41,949 bases of DNA from Mycobacteriales bacterium (GTDB lineage Bacteria; Actinomycetota; Actinomycetes; JAFAQI01), in the NCBI GenBank assembly GCA_035504215.1, contig DATJSI010000096.1, positions 1 to 41,949 of the forward strand. The letters are read 5' to 3'. A model generated the notes under the pieces. It had not been told where the DNA came from. It saw nothing but the letters and a program-made list of their open reading frames with translations, and searched no databases. Below are positions 16,341 to 23,712 of this stretch, piece by piece (position 1 is the stretch's first letter; every line of letters begins with the position of its first letter). The translations under genes and the position numbers were made by a program.

Positions 16341-16346
16341 TACCCT
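16341..16346 (+). promoter_or_regulatory. -10 box (TACCCT) for the TPP-riboswitch transcript
   Basis: TACCCT fits TANNNT and would place the transcription start at about 16352-16354, just at the 5' edge of the riboswitch aptamer. No good -35 is seen. Confidence 0.4.
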
Positions 16347-16351
16347 CGGGC

Positions 16352-16443
16352 TCTACCCGCGGGAGTCCGGGCGACCGGGCTGAGAGGGCGACTGCCGGTC
16401 GCCGACCGCCGAACCTGAACCGGGTCATGCCGGCGTAGGGAGT
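16352..16443 (+). ncRNA. TPP riboswitch (THI element)
   Basis: The conserved CTGAGA (16380-16385) and ACCTGA (16413-16418) boxes are present, followed by GTCATGCCGGCGTAGGGA (16424-16441), matching the THI-box consensus. A GGCGAC/GTCGCC hairpin (16387-16403) is the variable P3 arm. AGGGAG (16437-16442) is both the aptamer 3' edge and the ribosome binding site seven bases before the permease ATG. Ligand binding therefore probably hides the ribosome site (translational control). No terminator hairpin is seen between aptamer and gene. Confidence 0.93.
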
Positions 16444-16449
16444 GGACCG

Positions 16450-17820
16450 ATGGCCATCACAGTCGACAGTCCAGCCGTGCAGAACGAGGTGCCCCTCACC
16501 CTCGACCAACCCGCGCCGAAGGTGCTCGGGTGGCTGGACCAGATCGGGCTGTGGGGAAACCTCGGCGTGACGATCCTCGCTCCGGTAGGTGCGGTCAGCG
16601 TGCTCGCGCCGGCCGGCAGCCCGAGGCTCTCGTTCCTTGCCGCCGGCCTTGCCGTGATCGTCGGCACCGGCTTCGGCGCGCTGCTCATCGCGGCTGCCGC
16701 CGTACCGGGTGCGCAGACCGGAGCACCGTCGATGGTGCTGATGCGAGGGTTGTTCGGCCGGCGGTTGTCCTACTTGCCGACCGCGGTGAACGTCTTGCAG
16801 CTGCTCGGCTGGACGGTCTTCGAAATCGTCGTGATCGCGTCCGCCGCGCAGCAGCTGTTCCCCTGGCATGCGCATCGCTGGCCGTACGTCGTCATCGCCG
16901 GTGGGCTCACCGTCGCGATGACGATCCGGCCGCTCGGGGTGGTGCGGATTCTCCGGCGCTACGCGATCGTGGCGGTGACGGTGGTCACTACCTACCTGTT
17001 CGTGCAGCTGCTGCGGCATCCGCTGCCGTCGTTGACCCATGGTTCGTGGCACGGGTTCTGGGCCGGCGCCGACGTGGCGATCGCGGTCGCGGTGTCGTGG
17101 GCCCCGCTCGCGAGCGACTACACCCGGCACTCGCGGTCGGCGAAGAGCGCGTTCGGCGGCGCGATCGTGGGATACACCATCACGCAGGTCGCGGGCTACC
17201 TGCTCGGCCTGGTCGCCCTCGCCACCGTCGTGACCGCCAGCGACGCCAACCTGCAACACGACATGTTCGGCGCCTTCATCGCCGTACCGGCCGGCTGGCT
17301 GGCGTTCGGCGTCCTGGTGCTGCGCGAGCTCGACGAGTCCTTCGCGGACGGCTACTCCGCGGTCGTCTCGATGCAGAACGTGTGGCCGCGGTTCGACCGG
17401 CGATGGTTCGCCGTGGCAGTCGGTGCGATCGCGACCGTTGGCGCGCTCGCGCTGAACATCAACAACTACATCAACTTTCTGTTGCTCCTCGCCTCGGTGC
17501 TCGTGCCGCTCACCGCCGTCTTCCTGGTCGACTACTACGCCACGCACCGCCTGCGGGCGTGGGACGTGAGCGCGGTTGCGCCGGCGCGGCCGGCCATGGT
17601 GGTTCCGTGGCTGCTCGGCTTCGTCGTCTACCAGCTGATCGAGCCGAGCGCGGGCGGGTGGTGGGCGCGGCTGTGGGTGCACGCTGACCACGGCCTGCAT
17701 CTGAGCGTCCGGTCGTGGATGAGCGCGTCGATCCTGTCCTTCGCGGTTGCCGCGCTGGCCACGGCACCGGGTGTCCTGGCGCGGCGGCGCCGCCTGCGGG
17801 CCGCAATGATGGAGCCATGA
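16450..17820 (+). CDS. cytX: NCS1-family permease under TPP control, probable HMP transporter (CytX-like)
   Basis: This 456-residue protein has about twelve membrane segments and the features of purine-cytosine permeases (NCS1): an N-terminal LDQIGLWGNLGVTILAPVGA and the helix-6 region DVAIAVAVSWAPLASDYTR. A TPP riboswitch directly in front is typical of CytX, the proposed transporter for hydroxymethylpyrimidine (HMP), a thiamine precursor. The substrate is therefore inferred from regulation plus family; a cytosine or allantoin role is less likely. Its stop overlaps the next start (ATGA), so downstream genes should share the regulation. Confidence 0.85.
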   Translation: MAITVDSPAVQNEVPLTLDQPAPKVLGWLDQIGLWGNLGVTILAPVGAVSVLAPAGSPRLSFLAAGLAVIVGTGFGALLIAAAAVPGAQTGAPSMVLMRGLFGRRLSYLPTAVNVLQLLGWTVFEIVVIASAAQQLFPWHAHRWPYVVIAGGLTVAMTIRPLGVVRILRRYAIVAVTVVTTYLFVQLLRHPLPSLTHGSWHGFWAGADVAIAVAVSWAPLASDYTRHSRSAKSAFGGAIVGYTITQVAGYLLGLVALATVVTASDANLQHDMFGAFIAVPAGWLAFGVLVLRELDESFADGYSAVVSMQNVWPRFDRRWFAVAVGAIATVGALALNINNYINFLLLLASVLVPLTAVFLVDYYATHRLRAWDVSAVAPARPAMVVPWLLGFVVYQLIEPSAGGWWARLWVHADHGLHLSVRSWMSASILSFAVAALATAPGVLARRRRLRAAMMEP

Positions 17821-18278
17821 GCCGGTTGACGCGCGGCCAGCGAGCGCTGGTGTACGGCCTGGCGGGATGGTGCAGCGAGATCGTCACCACCTCCGTCCGC
17901 AGCCGGGGACGCGACGGCAACTGGCGGCTGACCGGTACGACGTATGCATGGATGCTGCCGATCTACGGCAGCGCCGCGGTGCTGTTCGAGCCGGCGTACG
18001 ACGCGGCCCGGCGCAGCGGGCGGCCGTGGTGGCAGCGCGGGTTGGCCTGGATGATGGGCATCTTCGCGGTCGAAGCGGTGACCGGCGAAGCGCTCCGAGC
18101 CGTTACCGGCGAGGTGCCGTGGGACTACACGCGGGCGCGCGGCCGCAAGGCGGTACCGGCGAACTGGCGCGGGCTGGTCCGGCCGGCGTACGCGCCGTTT
18201 TGGTTCGCGGTCGGGTTGGGAATGGAGCGCCTGCACGATCTGCTTGACCGGGTAGAGATCGCTCCGGAAGGACGTTGA
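17817..18278 (+). CDS. Small membrane protein, CmpB-like (putative ABC transporter type IV)
   Basis: This 153-residue protein has four probable membrane segments (around 8-25, 42-62, 77-97 and 125-142). The opening YGLAGWCSEI and the following MLPIYGSAAVLFEP resemble the PF06541 family ('putative ABC-transporter type IV', CmpB), whose function is not established. The ATG at 17817 overlaps the cytX stop, and its own stop overlaps the next ATG (TGATG at 18276-18280). It is therefore locked into the TPP-riboswitch operon. A helper role in uptake is inference only. Confidence 0.72.
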   Translation: MSRLTRGQRALVYGLAGWCSEIVTTSVRSRGRDGNWRLTGTTYAWMLPIYGSAAVLFEPAYDAARRSGRPWWQRGLAWMMGIFAVEAVTGEALRAVTGEVPWDYTRARGRKAVPANWRGLVRPAYAPFWFAVGLGMERLHDLLDRVEIAPEGR

Positions 18279-19660
18279 TGCGCCACCGACGATTCGGCAC
18301 CGCGCTGGCATCGTCAGTGCTGCTGCTCGTCGTTGCGGCGTGCGGGACCCGACTGCCCAACAGCGCCTTCAGCTCGCAGGAACATCCGACGACCGGCGCG
18401 AGCAGCCCGACCGGCGCGTCCTCGTCGCCGACCGCCTCGGACGACGGCAACACGGCCTCGGCCGTCGGGGTGACCCCTACGACGATCACCATCGGACAGA
18501 TCGCGAGCATCACGAACCCGTTCGATCCCGAGTCCTTCGTCGGCCCGGAGTACGGCCTGCAGGCGTTCGTGCGCTACACGAACGCTCATGGTGGGATCCA
18601 TGGCCGGCAGCTCGTGCTCCACACCTGCGATGACCAGGGGTCGTCGATCGAGAACAACGTCTGCGCGCACACGCTGATCGACAAGGACCACGTCTTCGCG
18701 TTGGTCTCCAACGCGGCGATCGACTACGCCGGCGCCGGATATGTGAACTCGCAGAACGTCCCCGACATCGGCGCGCAGCCGATCGACAACTCCTACGTGA
18801 CCTACCACAACCTGTTCGACTTGTACGGCGAGTCGTATCCGCGCAACGGCAAGCCTGGGCTCAACGGAATGCTCTACGGCGGCACCGAGGTCTACCGCTT
18901 CTTCAAGGTGCACTTTCCGCACGTACCGCTGAAGGCGGGTGTCGTCGAGTACAACCAGTCCGACTCCGAGCGGTACGGCAACAGCATCGCGGAAGGGCTT
19001 CGTCTCGAGGGCTACAGCGTGTTGACGAAGGTCGTCAACTTCGCGTTGCCGGACTGGAACGCGGTCGCGATCGCGTTCAAGCACGCGGGCGTGCAGTATG
19101 TCTACGACGCGCTCGACAACGGCGGCAACGAGAAGCTCTGCGCCGCGCTGGACGACAACGACGTGAGCATCACCGCGAAGGTGCTGACGACCCAGGCCTG
19201 GAACCAGTCGGTGAATTCGGAGTACGCCGCATCGCCGCATTGCCGCAACGAGCTCTGGGTGACCGGCAACACCCGCAACTACGAGGACACCAAGTATCAC
19301 CAGGTCGCGTTGTTCCGCCAGCAGATGTCGGCCGACGGTGACGGTGGCGCCAAGCAGCTGAGCGAATGGGCGCTGGAGGCCTGGGCAGGTGCCTTGTGGT
19401 TCGCCGACGCAGCGCAGAGCTGTGGCGCGGATCTCACCCGGCCGTGTGTCGAGAAGTACATGTACCGCAAGCAGCTGTTCACCGGCGACGGGCTGCTGAC
19501 GCCAAGAGGATTCTCGGACTCCTCATCGCACCCGAGCGAGGTTCGCAACTGCCTGAACGTCGCGCGTTGGAACAGCGCCAAGGACAGTTGGGTGACCCAG
19601 GTCCCGAACATGGACACCAACTGCTTTCGCGTCCCGAACTTCAGCTACGCCGCGGACTGA
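18278..19660 (+). CDS. Liv-type (type I) substrate-binding lipoprotein of an ABC transporter
   Basis: This 460-residue protein begins with a lipoprotein signal peptide (hydrophobic 10-20, lipobox VVAAC with Cys about 21) and a Ser/Thr-rich linker. It then has a periplasmic-binding fold of the branched-chain amino acid type: TPTTITIGQIASITNPFDP, GLQAFVRYTNAHGGIHGR, and later KAGVVEYNQSDSERYG. The ligand is not readable from sequence. The ATG at 18278 shares a base with the upstream stop, GGAAGGA precedes it, and the gene is third in the TPP-riboswitch operon. It ends exactly where the convergent Liv-type ABC operon ends (TGA|TCA). It is the natural partner of that permease and the link to thiamine regulation is unusual. 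Confidence 0.85.
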   Translation: MRHRRFGTALASSVLLLVVAACGTRLPNSAFSSQEHPTTGASSPTGASSSPTASDDGNTASAVGVTPTTITIGQIASITNPFDPESFVGPEYGLQAFVRYTNAHGGIHGRQLVLHTCDDQGSSIENNVCAHTLIDKDHVFALVSNAAIDYAGAGYVNSQNVPDIGAQPIDNSYVTYHNLFDLYGESYPRNGKPGLNGMLYGGTEVYRFFKVHFPHVPLKAGVVEYNQSDSERYGNSIAEGLRLEGYSVLTKVVNFALPDWNAVAIAFKHAGVQYVYDALDNGGNEKLCAALDDNDVSITAKVLTTQAWNQSVNSEYAASPHCRNELWVTGNTRNYEDTKYHQVALFRQQMSADGDGGAKQLSEWALEAWAGALWFADAAQSCGADLTRPCVEKYMYRKQLFTGDGLLTPRGFSDSSSHPSEVRNCLNVARWNSAKDSWVTQVPNMDTNCFRVPNFSYAAD

Positions 19661-20341
19661 TCAGCCGGCCGCGGTCTTCTGTTGGGCGGTCAGCTCGGAG
19701 GGCTCGCCCGCGAACTCGATCGCTCCGCGGTTGAGCACGTAGACCACATCGGCCATGCGCAGCGCGTCGGAGAGGTGTTGCTCGACCAGGACGACGGTCG
19801 TCCCTGTCTTGGCGAGCGCGGCGACGACGTCCAGCAGCTGCCTGGTCACTCGAGGCGCGAGCCCTTGGGAGATCTCGTCGAGCAGCAGCAAGCGCGGCTT
19901 GTGCAGCAGCGCCCGGCTCATCGCCAGCATCTGCTGCTCGCCGCCGGACATCGAGCCGGCGGGCTGATCCAGCCGCTCGCGCAGGATCGGGAACTGATCC
20001 AGAGCCGGGTCCCATCCCTGCCGGGATCCGGCGAACACCTCGAGGTTGTCGCGCACGGTGAGATCGGGGAACACCCCGCGGCGTTCGGGGATCAAGAGCA
20101 GGCCGGCGGCGGCTCGTTCGTGCGGTGGGAGCGTGCGGATCGACCGCCCCGCCCAGATGATGTCGCCGGAGCGCGCGCGAAGCAGGCCCGCGACGACCGA
20201 GAGCAGCGTGGTCTTGCCGGCGCCGTTCGGGCCGAGCAGCGCGGTCAGCACTCCGGCGGGGACATCGAGGGAGACACCGTGCAGGACCTCGACCGGCCCG
20301 TAGCCGGCACGCAGGCCGCGAAGCGAGAGCTCGACCGCCAT
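19661..20341 (-). CDS. Liv-type ABC transporter ATPase (LivF-like)
   Basis: This 226-residue ATPase has Walker A GPNGAGKTT (about 37-45), signature MSGGEQQ (about 130-136), Walker B LLLLDE and a switch His in VEQHL. The GVFPDLTVRDNLEV region is characteristic of LivF. It energises the fused permease together with the LivG-like protein. The start overlaps the LivG stop (TGATG). It converges with the substrate-binding protein with no spacer. Confidence 0.88.
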   Translation of the reverse strand: MAVELSLRGLRAGYGPVEVLHGVSLDVPAGVLTALLGPNGAGKTTLLSVVAGLLRARSGDIIWAGRSIRTLPPHERAAAGLLLIPERRGVFPDLTVRDNLEVFAGSRQGWDPALDQFPILRERLDQPAGSMSGGEQQMLAMSRALLHKPRLLLLDEISQGLAPRVTRQLLDVVAALAKTGTTVVLVEQHLSDALRMADVVYVLNRGAIEFAGEPSELTAQQKTAAG

Positions 20342-21138
20342 CAGCCGGCCGCAGGCTCGATGTCGAGATATGCCTCGCGTACGGCGGATGAGGCCCGGAT
20401 CTCCTCCGGAGTGCCTTCGGCGATCAGCTGGCCGGCGGCCATCGCGTAGATGCGGTCAGCGATGCCGAAGACGAGGTCGACGTCGTGCTCGACCAGCAAC
20501 ACCGCCACGTCGCGGGAAGCCACGTCACGAAGCACTCGCTGGAAGTTGTCGATCTCCGCGGTGTCGAGTCCGGTCGCCGGCTCGTCGAGCAGCAGCACCT
20601 CCGGGTCATGGCACAACGCCCGGCCGAGCTCGACCAGCCGCAGGGTGCCGGTCGACAAGGTTGCGGCGGGTGCCCGGCGTACCGCGTCCAACCCGAGGAT
20701 GTCGATGACACCGTCGACGCGGCGACGGTGCGCGGCCTGGTCGCCGACGGTGATCCCGATCAGTCCGGCCAGCAGCCCACCGACGCGGCGCACGACGCCC
20801 GCGTTGGTTCGGTGTTCGGCGCCGACCAGCAGGTTGTCCTCGACGCTCATGGTGCCGAAGACCGCAAGCCGCTGGAAGGTTCGGCTGATGCCCAGCCGGG
20901 CACGTGCGTCCGGGCTGCGCGTCGTGATGTCCCGACCGTCGAGCCGCACTCGTCCCTCGTCGGGGCGCTCGACACCGGTGAGGCACTGGAACAACGTCGT
21001 CTTGCCCGCGCCGTTCGGCCCGATCAGCGCGGTGATCGTGCCCGACCGGGTCTCTACCGAGACGCCGTCCAGCGCGGTGAGTCCGCCGAACCGTTTGACC
21101 AGCCCGACACCCTCGAGGTGGCCGTTGGTTGCGCTCAT
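20341..21138 (-). CDS. Liv-type ABC transporter ATPase (LivG-like)
   Basis: This 265-residue ATPase has Walker A GPNGAGKTT (about 33-41), GISRTFQRLAVFGTMSVEDNL as in LivG, Walker B VLLLDEPATGLD and the switch His in VEHDVD. The signature motif reads LSTGTLRLVELGRAL in place of LSYGQQRRLEIARAL, a variant worth noting. The ATG at 21138 overlaps the permease stop (ATGA); longer readings run into the permease gene and are rejected. Confidence 0.88.
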   Translation of the reverse strand: MSATNGHLEGVGLVKRFGGLTALDGVSVETRSGTITALIGPNGAGKTTLFQCLTGVERPDEGRVRLDGRDITTRSPDARARLGISRTFQRLAVFGTMSVEDNLLVGAEHRTNAGVVRRVGGLLAGLIGITVGDQAAHRRRVDGVIDILGLDAVRRAPAATLSTGTLRLVELGRALCHDPEVLLLDEPATGLDTAEIDNFQRVLRDVASRDVAVLLVEHDVDLVFGIADRIYAMAAGQLIAEGTPEEIRASSAVREAYLDIEPAAG

Positions 21139-23129
21139 CGCGCGGTCGCCTTCACGCCGCGCCGTGCCTGGATGGTGGCCCGGGCCTGCTCGCCGCGTGC
21201 GGTCAGGGTGTGTCGGGAAGGCGTGGTCGGGTGCACCGCCTCGTAACGGCGGACCAGCGCCGCCGGGTGGGCCAGCCAGTCCACGAGCCGTCGAGCCGCG
21301 TCCGAGACGCCGCCGGGCAGCAGCCCGATGAAGGTGGCGAAGACGCCGATCACGATCTGGTAGGCGTCCGGGTTGGCGGTCAGCGAGTTCACGAGTACGA
21401 CGAGGGCGGCGCCGAGCACGGCACCGGCGGCGCTGTCCGCGCCGAACACGACCACGACGGCGAACCACGGGATGCTCGAGGCGAGCGGGTCGAAGGAGTC
21501 CGCGGAGAACGCGCCACCCTGCTGCGCCAACAACGCACCGCCGATGCCGGCGATGGCCGCGGAGACCGTGAAGATGAACACCTTGAGCGTGCGCACATCG
21601 ACGCCGACCGAACCGGCACCCGTCTCGCTGTCACGCATCGCGACCAGCGAGCGCCCGATCATGCCCGAGCGCAGGTTGGTCATGATCAGGAAGACCAGGC
21701 CGAGCACGACCAGCTCGAAGCAGTAGAACGCGCGGTCCCCGGACAGCGACAGCCCGAGCACGGACGGCCGCAACACCTGGAGTCCGTTGGTGAAATACGG
21801 CTGCTGGAACACGAAACGGCTCACGAACGCGCCGACCGCGAACGTGGTCAGTGCGAGGAACAGCCCGCGGCGGCGAATCGCCGGATACCCGGTCAGGAAC
21901 CCGACGAGGCCGGCCGCGATCGCCGCACCGAGCAACGCAACCAGCTCGGGGGCGCCGGTGCTGAACCGGCCGAACAGCAACGCGCCGAGTCCGGCGTACC
22001 CCGCTTGACCGAGCGAGATCTGGCCGCTGTAGCCCGTGACCGCGACGATGGACACGAAGATGACGGCGAGCGCGGGCACTTGTTGCGCCTGGCGGAGGTT
22101 CGTGTCGCTGAACAGGAGCGGGCTGACCAGCGCGAGGGTCGCCGCGGTGTAGATGCCGACCCGCCAGCGAACCCCGAACTCGGTTGACCTGCGGCGTGCG
22201 AGCGACGTCGTCGTACCGGCATCGGAGCTGTCACCGCTGTCCGCCCGAATACCGGCGAATCGGTTGCGCGCGAGCAGCGCGGCCAGCAGCGCGACCACCG
22301 GTAGGTTGGCCTGCAAGGCGTCCCAGATGCTGAGGGCGGCGCCGGCGGGTGACCACAGCGACATCTCGCTCGAGCCGATTCCGAGTGCGAGGCCGGCGAT
22401 GATCGCGACCGGCACGTTGGTCAGGCCGGCGATGACCGGCACCGCGAAGGTCTCGAGGACGACGAGCGTGAGCTCGAACGGGGTGAACTGGATCTCCGGG
22501 GCGATGAGGATCCCGGTGAGTGCCGCGATCATCACGCCCGTTGCCCAGCCGATCGCCGCGACCCGGTCGGCGTCGATGCCGGAGAGCTGGGCGAGATCGC
22601 GTCGGTCGACGACGGCGCGGATCGAGGTGCCCAGCGCGGTTCGTCGGGTGATCACACCGAGCAGCACGGTGCCGACGATGACGATCGCGAGATCGCCGGT
22701 CGCGTCCATGTGGATCGTCAGTGACCCCACCTGCCACACGCCCTGCGGGAGCAGGCTCGGTGGCGACTGCGCCTGAAGCCCCCAGATCTCGTAGGCGATG
22801 CCGATCAGCAGCGCGGTGAGACCGATCGTCGCGACCAGCGACTCGGCGGCCGAGGCATCGCGGCGTTGCAGCGGCCGGAACACCAGGCGCTGGACGAGCA
22901 CTCCGAACGCCGGTGCGAAACCGAGCAGGACGACGACCGCCGCAACCGCCTTGGGCCAGTGCCAGTCCTGGACGGCCGCGAGGAAGACGTACGCCGCCAT
23001 CATCGCGATCGCACCCTGCGCGATGTTGAAGACGCCGGTGGCCCGGTAGGTGATGATCAGGCCGACCCCTGACAGGGCAGCGACCGCTCCGAGCGCGAGC
23101 CCCGCGAAGGCGTAGTTGAGGGCGAGCAC
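21135..23129 (-). CDS. Fused LivH-LivM ABC permease
   Basis: This 664-residue protein has two permease domains in one chain. The LivH-like half (about 1-290) starts YAFAGLALGAVAALSGVGLI and includes TGVFNIAQGAIAMMAAY. A charged Ser/Asp-rich linker follows (about 295-330). The LivM-like half (about 330-620) includes VTGYSGQISLGQAGYAGLGA and SEMS/DSETGAGSVGVDV-type segments. A cytoplasmic tail covers about 620-664. In most bacteria these are separate genes. The GTG at 23129 is chosen because it lies one base after the upstream stop and begins the first membrane segment. Confidence 0.85.
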   Translation of the reverse strand: MLALNYAFAGLALGAVAALSGVGLIITYRATGVFNIAQGAIAMMAAYVFLAAVQDWHWPKAVAAVVVLLGFAPAFGVLVQRLVFRPLQRRDASAAESLVATIGLTALLIGIAYEIWGLQAQSPPSLLPQGVWQVGSLTIHMDATGDLAIVIVGTVLLGVITRRTALGTSIRAVVDRRDLAQLSGIDADRVAAIGWATGVMIAALTGILIAPEIQFTPFELTLVVLETFAVPVIAGLTNVPVAIIAGLALGIGSSEMSLWSPAGAALSIWDALQANLPVVALLAALLARNRFAGIRADSGDSSDAGTTTSLARRRSTEFGVRWRVGIYTAATLALVSPLLFSDTNLRQAQQVPALAVIFVSIVAVTGYSGQISLGQAGYAGLGALLFGRFSTGAPELVALLGAAIAAGLVGFLTGYPAIRRRGLFLALTTFAVGAFVSRFVFQQPYFTNGLQVLRPSVLGLSLSGDRAFYCFELVVLGLVFLIMTNLRSGMIGRSLVAMRDSETGAGSVGVDVRTLKVFIFTVSAAIAGIGGALLAQQGGAFSADSFDPLASSIPWFAVVVVFGADSAAGAVLGAALVVLVNSLTANPDAYQIVIGVFATFIGLLPGGVSDAARRLVDWLAHPAALVRRYEAVHPTTPSRHTLTARGEQARATIQARRGVKATAR

Positions 23130-23130
23130 G

Positions 23131-23712
23131 TCAGCCGCTCGTAGGCTGACCTGGTTCGCAGACGGGGCAGGCGTGCAGCGAGCGCGCCGTGATCCCGGAT
23201 CCGTCGACCGGCGCGGCATCGGGCTTGCCTTCGACCAGCTCGCAGTTCGGCCGGTGGTACGTCGTACCGCCCGGGACCGCTACCACCGTGCCGGCGGACG
23301 GCACCTGCGCCGAGGTCGAGGTCGAGGTCGAGGGCGTCGGATCGGTTTGTGCCGTCTCGGGTGGAAGGCCGGCGCCGGCGTCATCGACGGGTTCGGCGAC
23401 GAGCAGTGCGTAGAGGTCGTCGACCTTTCGCTCGACACCGTCGAGCCGACCCAGGTTGCGGCGAAGGTTGTCGGTCGCGAGCAGAACGGCACCGATCAGG
23501 ACCAGTGCGATCCCGGACAATCCACCCGACACCAGGTACGGAAGCTGCTTCGCCGTGAGGGCCTGCCCGGAGACGCCGTACCAGCCGAGGAACAGCGCGA
23601 CCGCGCCGAGGACGACCAGTGCCCAGCCGAGGTACGGGCGAACACCGTCCCCGACCCACCGCCAGAACATACGGCGGTCGGCCGGCGCCAACCTTTCGTC
23701 GCGGGTCGTCAT
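23131..23712 (-). CDS. Two-TM membrane protein with C-terminal Cys/His (Ada-like metal-binding) tail
   Basis: This 193-residue protein opens the Liv operon. Two membrane helices lie at about 27-47 and 57-79, followed by a short coiled-coil-like segment (NLRRNLGRLDGVERKVDDLYALL), a Ser/Thr/Pro linker encoded partly by a GGTCGA-type hexamer repeat, and a tail with YHRPNC then CPVC (last 40 residues). The Y-H-x3-C ... C-x2-C spacing recalls the Ada-type zinc-binding motif found at the end of several uncharacterised actinobacterial proteins. A role in sensing or tuning the transporter is inference. The ATG is preceded by GGGGAAGGG, a strong ribosome site. Confidence 0.75.
   Translation of the reverse strand: MTTRDERLAPADRRMFWRWVGDGVRPYLGWALVVLGAVALFLGWYGVSGQALTAKQLPYLVSGGLSGIALVLIGAVLLATDNLRRNLGRLDGVERKVDDLYALLVAEPVDDAGAGLPPETAQTDPTPSTSTSTSAQVPSAGTVVAVPGGTTYHRPNCELVEGKPDAAPVDGSGITARSLHACPVCEPGQPTSG
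23312..23334. repeat. GAGGTC hexanucleotide repeat
   Basis: About 3.8 copies of GAGGTC lie in frame within the preceding gene and encode alternating Ser and Thr. Copy-number change would alter linker length without a frameshift. Confidence 0.7.

Follow-up and report, generated by a model that had tools for sequence, protein, structure and literature searches.

The window, that is, the whole 41,949-nucleotide stretch analyzed here, carries a TPP riboswitch (THI element) followed by three genes on the same strand, encoding an NCS1-type permease (cytX), a CmpB-like membrane protein (cmpB) and a Liv/HAAT-type substrate-binding lipoprotein (SBP). These face a Liv-type ABC transporter operon, livF-livG-fused livHM-193-aa membrane protein, at 19661-23712 (Table 1). 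The stop codons of the SBP gene (19658-19660) and of livF (19661-19663) abut as TGA/TCA with zero intergenic bases, and therefore the two transcripts must overlap.

Table 1. Features of the riboswitch locus and the facing Liv operon in the window.
Feature	Position	Strand	Basis
TPP riboswitch aptamer (THI element)	16349..16459 (core 16363-16442)	+	RF00059; covarying stems in 16-leader alignment
AGGGAG, cytX Shine-Dalgarno within aptamer	16437..16442	+	Sequence; consensus pairs, columns 109-136 and 110-135
cytX, NCS1-type permease, predicted HMP importer	16450..17820	+	PF02133 (Transp_cyt_pur), 7e-17
cmpB-like, 153-aa membrane protein	17817..18278	+	PF06541 (ABC_trans_CmpB), 40.9 bits vs cut-off 25.9, 3e-10
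Liv/HAAT-type substrate-binding lipoprotein (SBP)	18278..19660	+	PF13458 (Peripla_BP_6), 117.7 bits vs cut-off 31.7, 1e-33
livF-type ATPase	19661..20341	-	PF00005; under LivF and UrtE equivalog cut-offs
livG-type ATPase	20341..21138	-	PF00005, PF12399
Fused livH-livM permease, start codon uncertain	21135..23129	-	PF02653 (BPD_transp_2), two stretches
193-aa membrane protein of Liv cassette	23131..23712	-	Conserved with cassettes of this type

The THI-box that a sequence-only reading had placed before cytX is real, although its start lies at 16349, slightly off the 16341 first assigned. In a relaxed Rfam scan of 301 bases the element matches RF00059 with 54.0 bits (E = 4.1e-10), and a default scan of the window leaves it unreported because this score is 0.3 bit below the gathering threshold of 54.3. 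One further TPP riboswitch occurs in this genome. In an alignment of 16 leaders, 11 preceding cytX and five preceding thiO, the conserved CUGAGA and ACCUGA/GUAGGGA cores are present with covarying stems, the cores CTGAGAGGG and ATGC are invariant, and compensatory changes occur in 7 of the 20 pairs; folding the window leader by itself to its minimum free energy was uninformative (z 0.47). The corresponding riboswitch of a genome from another order (G023) scores 61 bits, above the gathering threshold. Five cytX leaders (L056, L057, L053, L054, and L055, from G002, G003, G006, G007, and G009) have an ACCTGA core that is two bases shorter; they score 28-38 bits with the remainder of the aptamer conserved, and are perhaps a variant or decaying aptamer. 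In the window, the end of the RF00059 match overlaps the cytX start codon (16450). Two G residues of AGGGAG, the sole evident Shine-Dalgarno sequence of cytX, pair with the CC of ACCTGA. Since the Shine-Dalgarno sequence pairs within the aptamer, translational control of cytX is predicted.

The top NCBIfam match of the permease is TIGR02358 (thia_cytX), which beats the ncs1 and cytosine permease models and, at 191 bits, is below its cut-off of 309.85; the protein is thus CytX-like, a label assigned by context. The overlaps said to join the three genes were confirmed as four bases (ATGA, cytX/cmpB) and one base (TGATG, cmpB/SBP). Between the genes, neither terminators in excess of chance nor sigma-70-type promoters were found, both being weak tests in a GC-rich actinomycete; an internal promoter and terminator had been named as evidence against the operon. 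Tight junctions also recur in relatives, with the cmpB-SBP spacing in eight genomes of two orders ranging between an overlap of 4 bases and a gap of ~50 bases. The riboswitch and the cytX-cmpB-SBP operon are very probably real, and SBP expression likely follows thiamine. The identification of a Liv-type binding lipoprotein held up as well, given the Peripla_BP_6 match, a VAAC lipobox and the HAAT fold matches described below. The name CmpB-like stands insofar as PF06541 is above its cut-off, but it is a Pfam label only, the gene also occurs without cytX (families f12 and f22), and the literature found on PF06541 is limited to a candidate listing.

No component of the system reaches a Liv or Urt equivalog cut-off in NCBIfam. 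The 193-aa protein, which has no match in Pfam or NCBIfam, has a C-terminal HxxxC..CxxC motif and is encoded by the first gene of such Liv cassettes across actinomycetes. In family f19 genomes (L169, L170, L172, and L176), one open frame spans LivHM and LivG.

To place the locus in context we compared it with those of related genomes, where genus, family and order denote groupings of the genome collection used, and the samples comprise 12 genomes for the family and 13 for the order. Among the family genomes, orthologous SBPs (54-61%) adjoin cmpB and face livF-livG-livHM-193 aa wherever the contig allows. A direct cytX-cmpB-SBP string is found in the window, G002, G007, and G009, and the THI-box/cytX/CmpB/Liv order that the sequence-only reading had proposed to seek elsewhere recurs across genera (G002, G007, and G009) and in a second order, where G023 has Fpg-THI-cytX-cmpB-SBP facing livFGHM-193 aa-GDPD-ADI. 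Four further genomes (G004, G005, G010, and G011) have THI-cytX-cmpB-GDPD and no SBP cassette. In G001, G003, and G006, cytX and cmpB are separated by genes identified from NCBIfam and Pfam as thiD, thiE (on the opposite strand) and thiO-thiS-thiG; cmpB begins on or just at the thiG stop in all three genomes, and on the codon itself in G001 and G003. Only 20-50 bases separate the starts of thiO and the divergent thiE, too few to accommodate a riboswitch, and none was recognized in this stretch ahead of the thiO-thiS-thiG-cmpB-SBP string. Comparison of loci L035-L038 (G001, G003, G002, and G006), L034, L039, and L040 indicates that this block is missing in G002 and genus g5, both without ThiG, as if thiamine synthesis had been lost repeatedly at a single locus. 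Synteny is just as strong for Fpg upstream and for GDPD/arginine deiminase downstream, and because these neighbors are unrelated to thiamine, conserved order alone is weak evidence. Stronger evidence for a thiamine link comes from the separate thiOSG adjacency, the single clade of linked SBPs and the pattern of ThiG loss.

None of the 13 genomes of the order has ThiC, vs 13/14 controls, and members of the order should therefore be HMP auxotrophs. In these ThiC-less genomes cytX is linked to THI-boxes or thi genes, the linkage by which CytX-type HMP salvage is recognized, and the occurrence of CytX in organisms without ThiC is a published argument for HMP transport (PMC5874261). Since all 13 genomes lack ThiC, CytX is probably an HMP importer. 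The second riboswitch of this genome is accompanied by thiO-thiS-thiG and thiE (C88). Full-length ThiG was not found in G002, G007, G008, and G009, where the matches are partial (~31 bits). The linked SBP type occurs in 4/4 of these ThiG-less genomes, and ThiG is kept in 5/5 genomes without a linked SBP, an association with a Fisher p of ~0.10 (70/715) for n = 13 that reflects two apparent losses and ignores relatedness. The direction of this pattern fits import of thiamine or thiazole. In addition, neither thiE nor thiD was found in the ~0.93 Mb sampled of the ~3.2 Mb genome of G002.

To assess the history of the cassette, we surveyed SBP-Liv homologues beyond the family. A contig search with the single SBP sequence gave no match, and an alignment profile recovered the relatives. 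Homologues with 45-50% identity and the same convergent geometry are widespread in actinomycetes; SBP matches at E ≤ 1e-60 occur in 59 of the 394 genomes sampled from the class, own family counted in, and derive mostly from two families with large genomes, while Actinocrinis also has the cassette. At the inspected loci of unlinked cassettes (Actinocrinis and families f18/f19), no cytX, cmpB or thi genes were found nearby. Because the same convergent layout exists in actinomycetes without nearby thiamine genes, the pairing of SBP and livFGHM is ancestral. The Liv operon had been read as the partner of the binding protein from their facing arrangement, and this pairing is borne out both in relatives and in unlinked cassettes; the geometry was a sound guide to partnership but, being ancestral to the cassette, is uninformative on thiamine. 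In a maximum-likelihood tree, the linked SBPs, including that of G023, form one clade (99/98 support) separate from the unlinked ones, with the exact placement of the long G023 branch less sure. The cassette predates its link to thiamine, which arose by recruitment specific to this lineage; on the simplest reading, an Fpg-cmpB-GDPD-ADI base locus would first have acquired THI-cytX and later the SBP cassette. Paralogous SBP-Liv cassettes (~38% identity; L041-L046) lie beside genes read from their sequence as enoyl-CoA hydratase, TetR pairs and P450-like genes, neighbors that point tentatively to a lipid or steroid-like substrate in this branch.

The AlphaFold2 model of the SBP is confident (pLDDT 91.8) and has two lobes. 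The PDB structures closest to it in fold are HAAT proteins (by query length, TM about 0.6-0.7) with diverse ligands, including pyroglutamate, leucine, urea, amides and aromatic acids; similarly, a PDB search with the profile returned LIV-type proteins, and one with the single SBP sequence returned nothing. Residues S79, A100/T102, and E226 of LIVBP, which hold the alpha-carboxylate and alpha-amino groups of the ligand, align to N145, QP/I, and Q306 of the SBP (lobe 2 placed by eye), and by this alignment an amino-acid backbone site is not evident. Moreover, 10 fixed substitutions are private to the linked clade (N80, D83, V88, H104, A146, G234, D259, Y274, Y276, and G357), compared with 3 and 1 for two control clades, and several align to loops near the LIVBP ligand cleft. 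This excess is suggestive only, as the groups differ in size and depth.

Collectively, these data lead us to propose that the locus serves thiamine salvage under TPP control in an actinomycete without ThiC, and that an older cassette has been recruited whose SBP delivers a vitamer, a reading that we credit, as a whole, at slightly short of even. TPP binding would hide the Shine-Dalgarno sequence and stop cytX translation, and cmpB and the SBP gene, co-transcribed with cytX, would follow its control through ATGA/TGATG coupling. CytX would import the pyrimidine half (HMP), which to judge from genome content the cell cannot make. The lipoprotein may then pass a second vitamer, likeliest thiamine or a thiazole compound, to LivFGHM, which is the least certain step, and the older actinobacterial cassette would have entered the thiamine locus once. 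Import of a thiamine-related compound by the SBP/Liv system is a plausible, if still tentative, candidate function, and the gene arrangement suggests, short of proof, an additional route of vitamin B1 uptake of an unexpected kind. More tentatively still, the SBP and LivFGHM, perhaps with CmpB, may form a Liv/HAAT importer for thiamine or a thiazole precursor under a TPP riboswitch, permitting the later loss of thiazole synthesis.

Another real possibility is that the cassette joined the Fpg-cytX-cmpB-GDPD locus by chance and, even if co-transcribed, imports the non-thiamine solute of its homologues. Its presence in Actinocrinis and f18/f19 in the same convergent geometry without thiamine genes agrees with such hitchhiking, as do the equal synteny of thiamine-unrelated neighbors and the occurrence of cmpB without cytX in f12/f22. 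However, the co-directional tight junctions persist over two orders, cmpB-SBP still adjoins thi genes in the relatives whose thiOSG block separates it from cytX, and the linked SBPs group in a single clade whose private fixed substitutions outnumber those of the controls.

The remaining alternatives are less favored. Expression of the SBP gene from a separate promoter within cmpB, with the translational riboswitch governing cytX alone, is unlikely. A switch that hides the Shine-Dalgarno sequence acts on translation, so that downstream control needs coupling or Rho, and cmpB and SBP are about 27-50 bases apart in G007, G009, and G023; against this stand the overlaps of four and one bases in the window and the lack of a promoter-like site between the genes, itself a weak test. 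Least probable is an importer of branched-chain or other alpha-amino acids whose thiamine link mirrors the thiamine dependence of amino-acid metabolism. Leucine- and pyroglutamate-binding HAAT proteins are among the top fold matches, but the LIVBP contacts to the alpha groups are not evident in the aligned SBP, the components score under the Liv equivalog cut-offs, and a separate Liv operon exists elsewhere in this genome (C149).

If the ligand of the proposed salvage system is a thiamine vitamer, a vitamin would join the amino acids, amides, urea and aromatic acids known as substrates of a very large transporter family, and there would be a testable route for vitamin B1 supply to actinomycetes unable to make it. 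If not, the locus shows how a riboswitch-controlled operon can take in a transporter of unrelated function, which cautions against guilt-by-association annotation. No report of a Liv/HAAT-type system in a TPP regulon or with thiamine was found in the searchable open literature, where CytX is treated as an HMP transporter (PMC5874261) and TPP regulons have been surveyed (PMC3766115).

The locus resembles TPP-riboswitch cytX/thiamine-salvage clusters in its THI-box before cytX, the absence of ThiC and the adjacent thi genes in relatives, and differs from them by the addition of cmpB and a Liv-type ABC importer. With HAAT (Liv/Urt/AmiC) importers it shares the Peripla_BP_6 lipoprotein, the LivF and LivG ATPases and the LivH and LivM permease domains; unlike them, it has an SBP gene convergent with the ABC genes, a fused permease and an extra 193-aa protein, reaches no Liv/Urt equivalog cut-off and is thiamine-linked in location. 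The thiamine-vitamer importers ThiXYZ, ThiBPQ, and YkoEDC rely on ECF S-components or on binding proteins with NMT1-like or other folds, not on Liv-type proteins. Like these systems (ThiXYZ is also covered in PMC3766115), the one described here would be a TPP-regulated multi-part importer, but its binding protein is of the Liv type.
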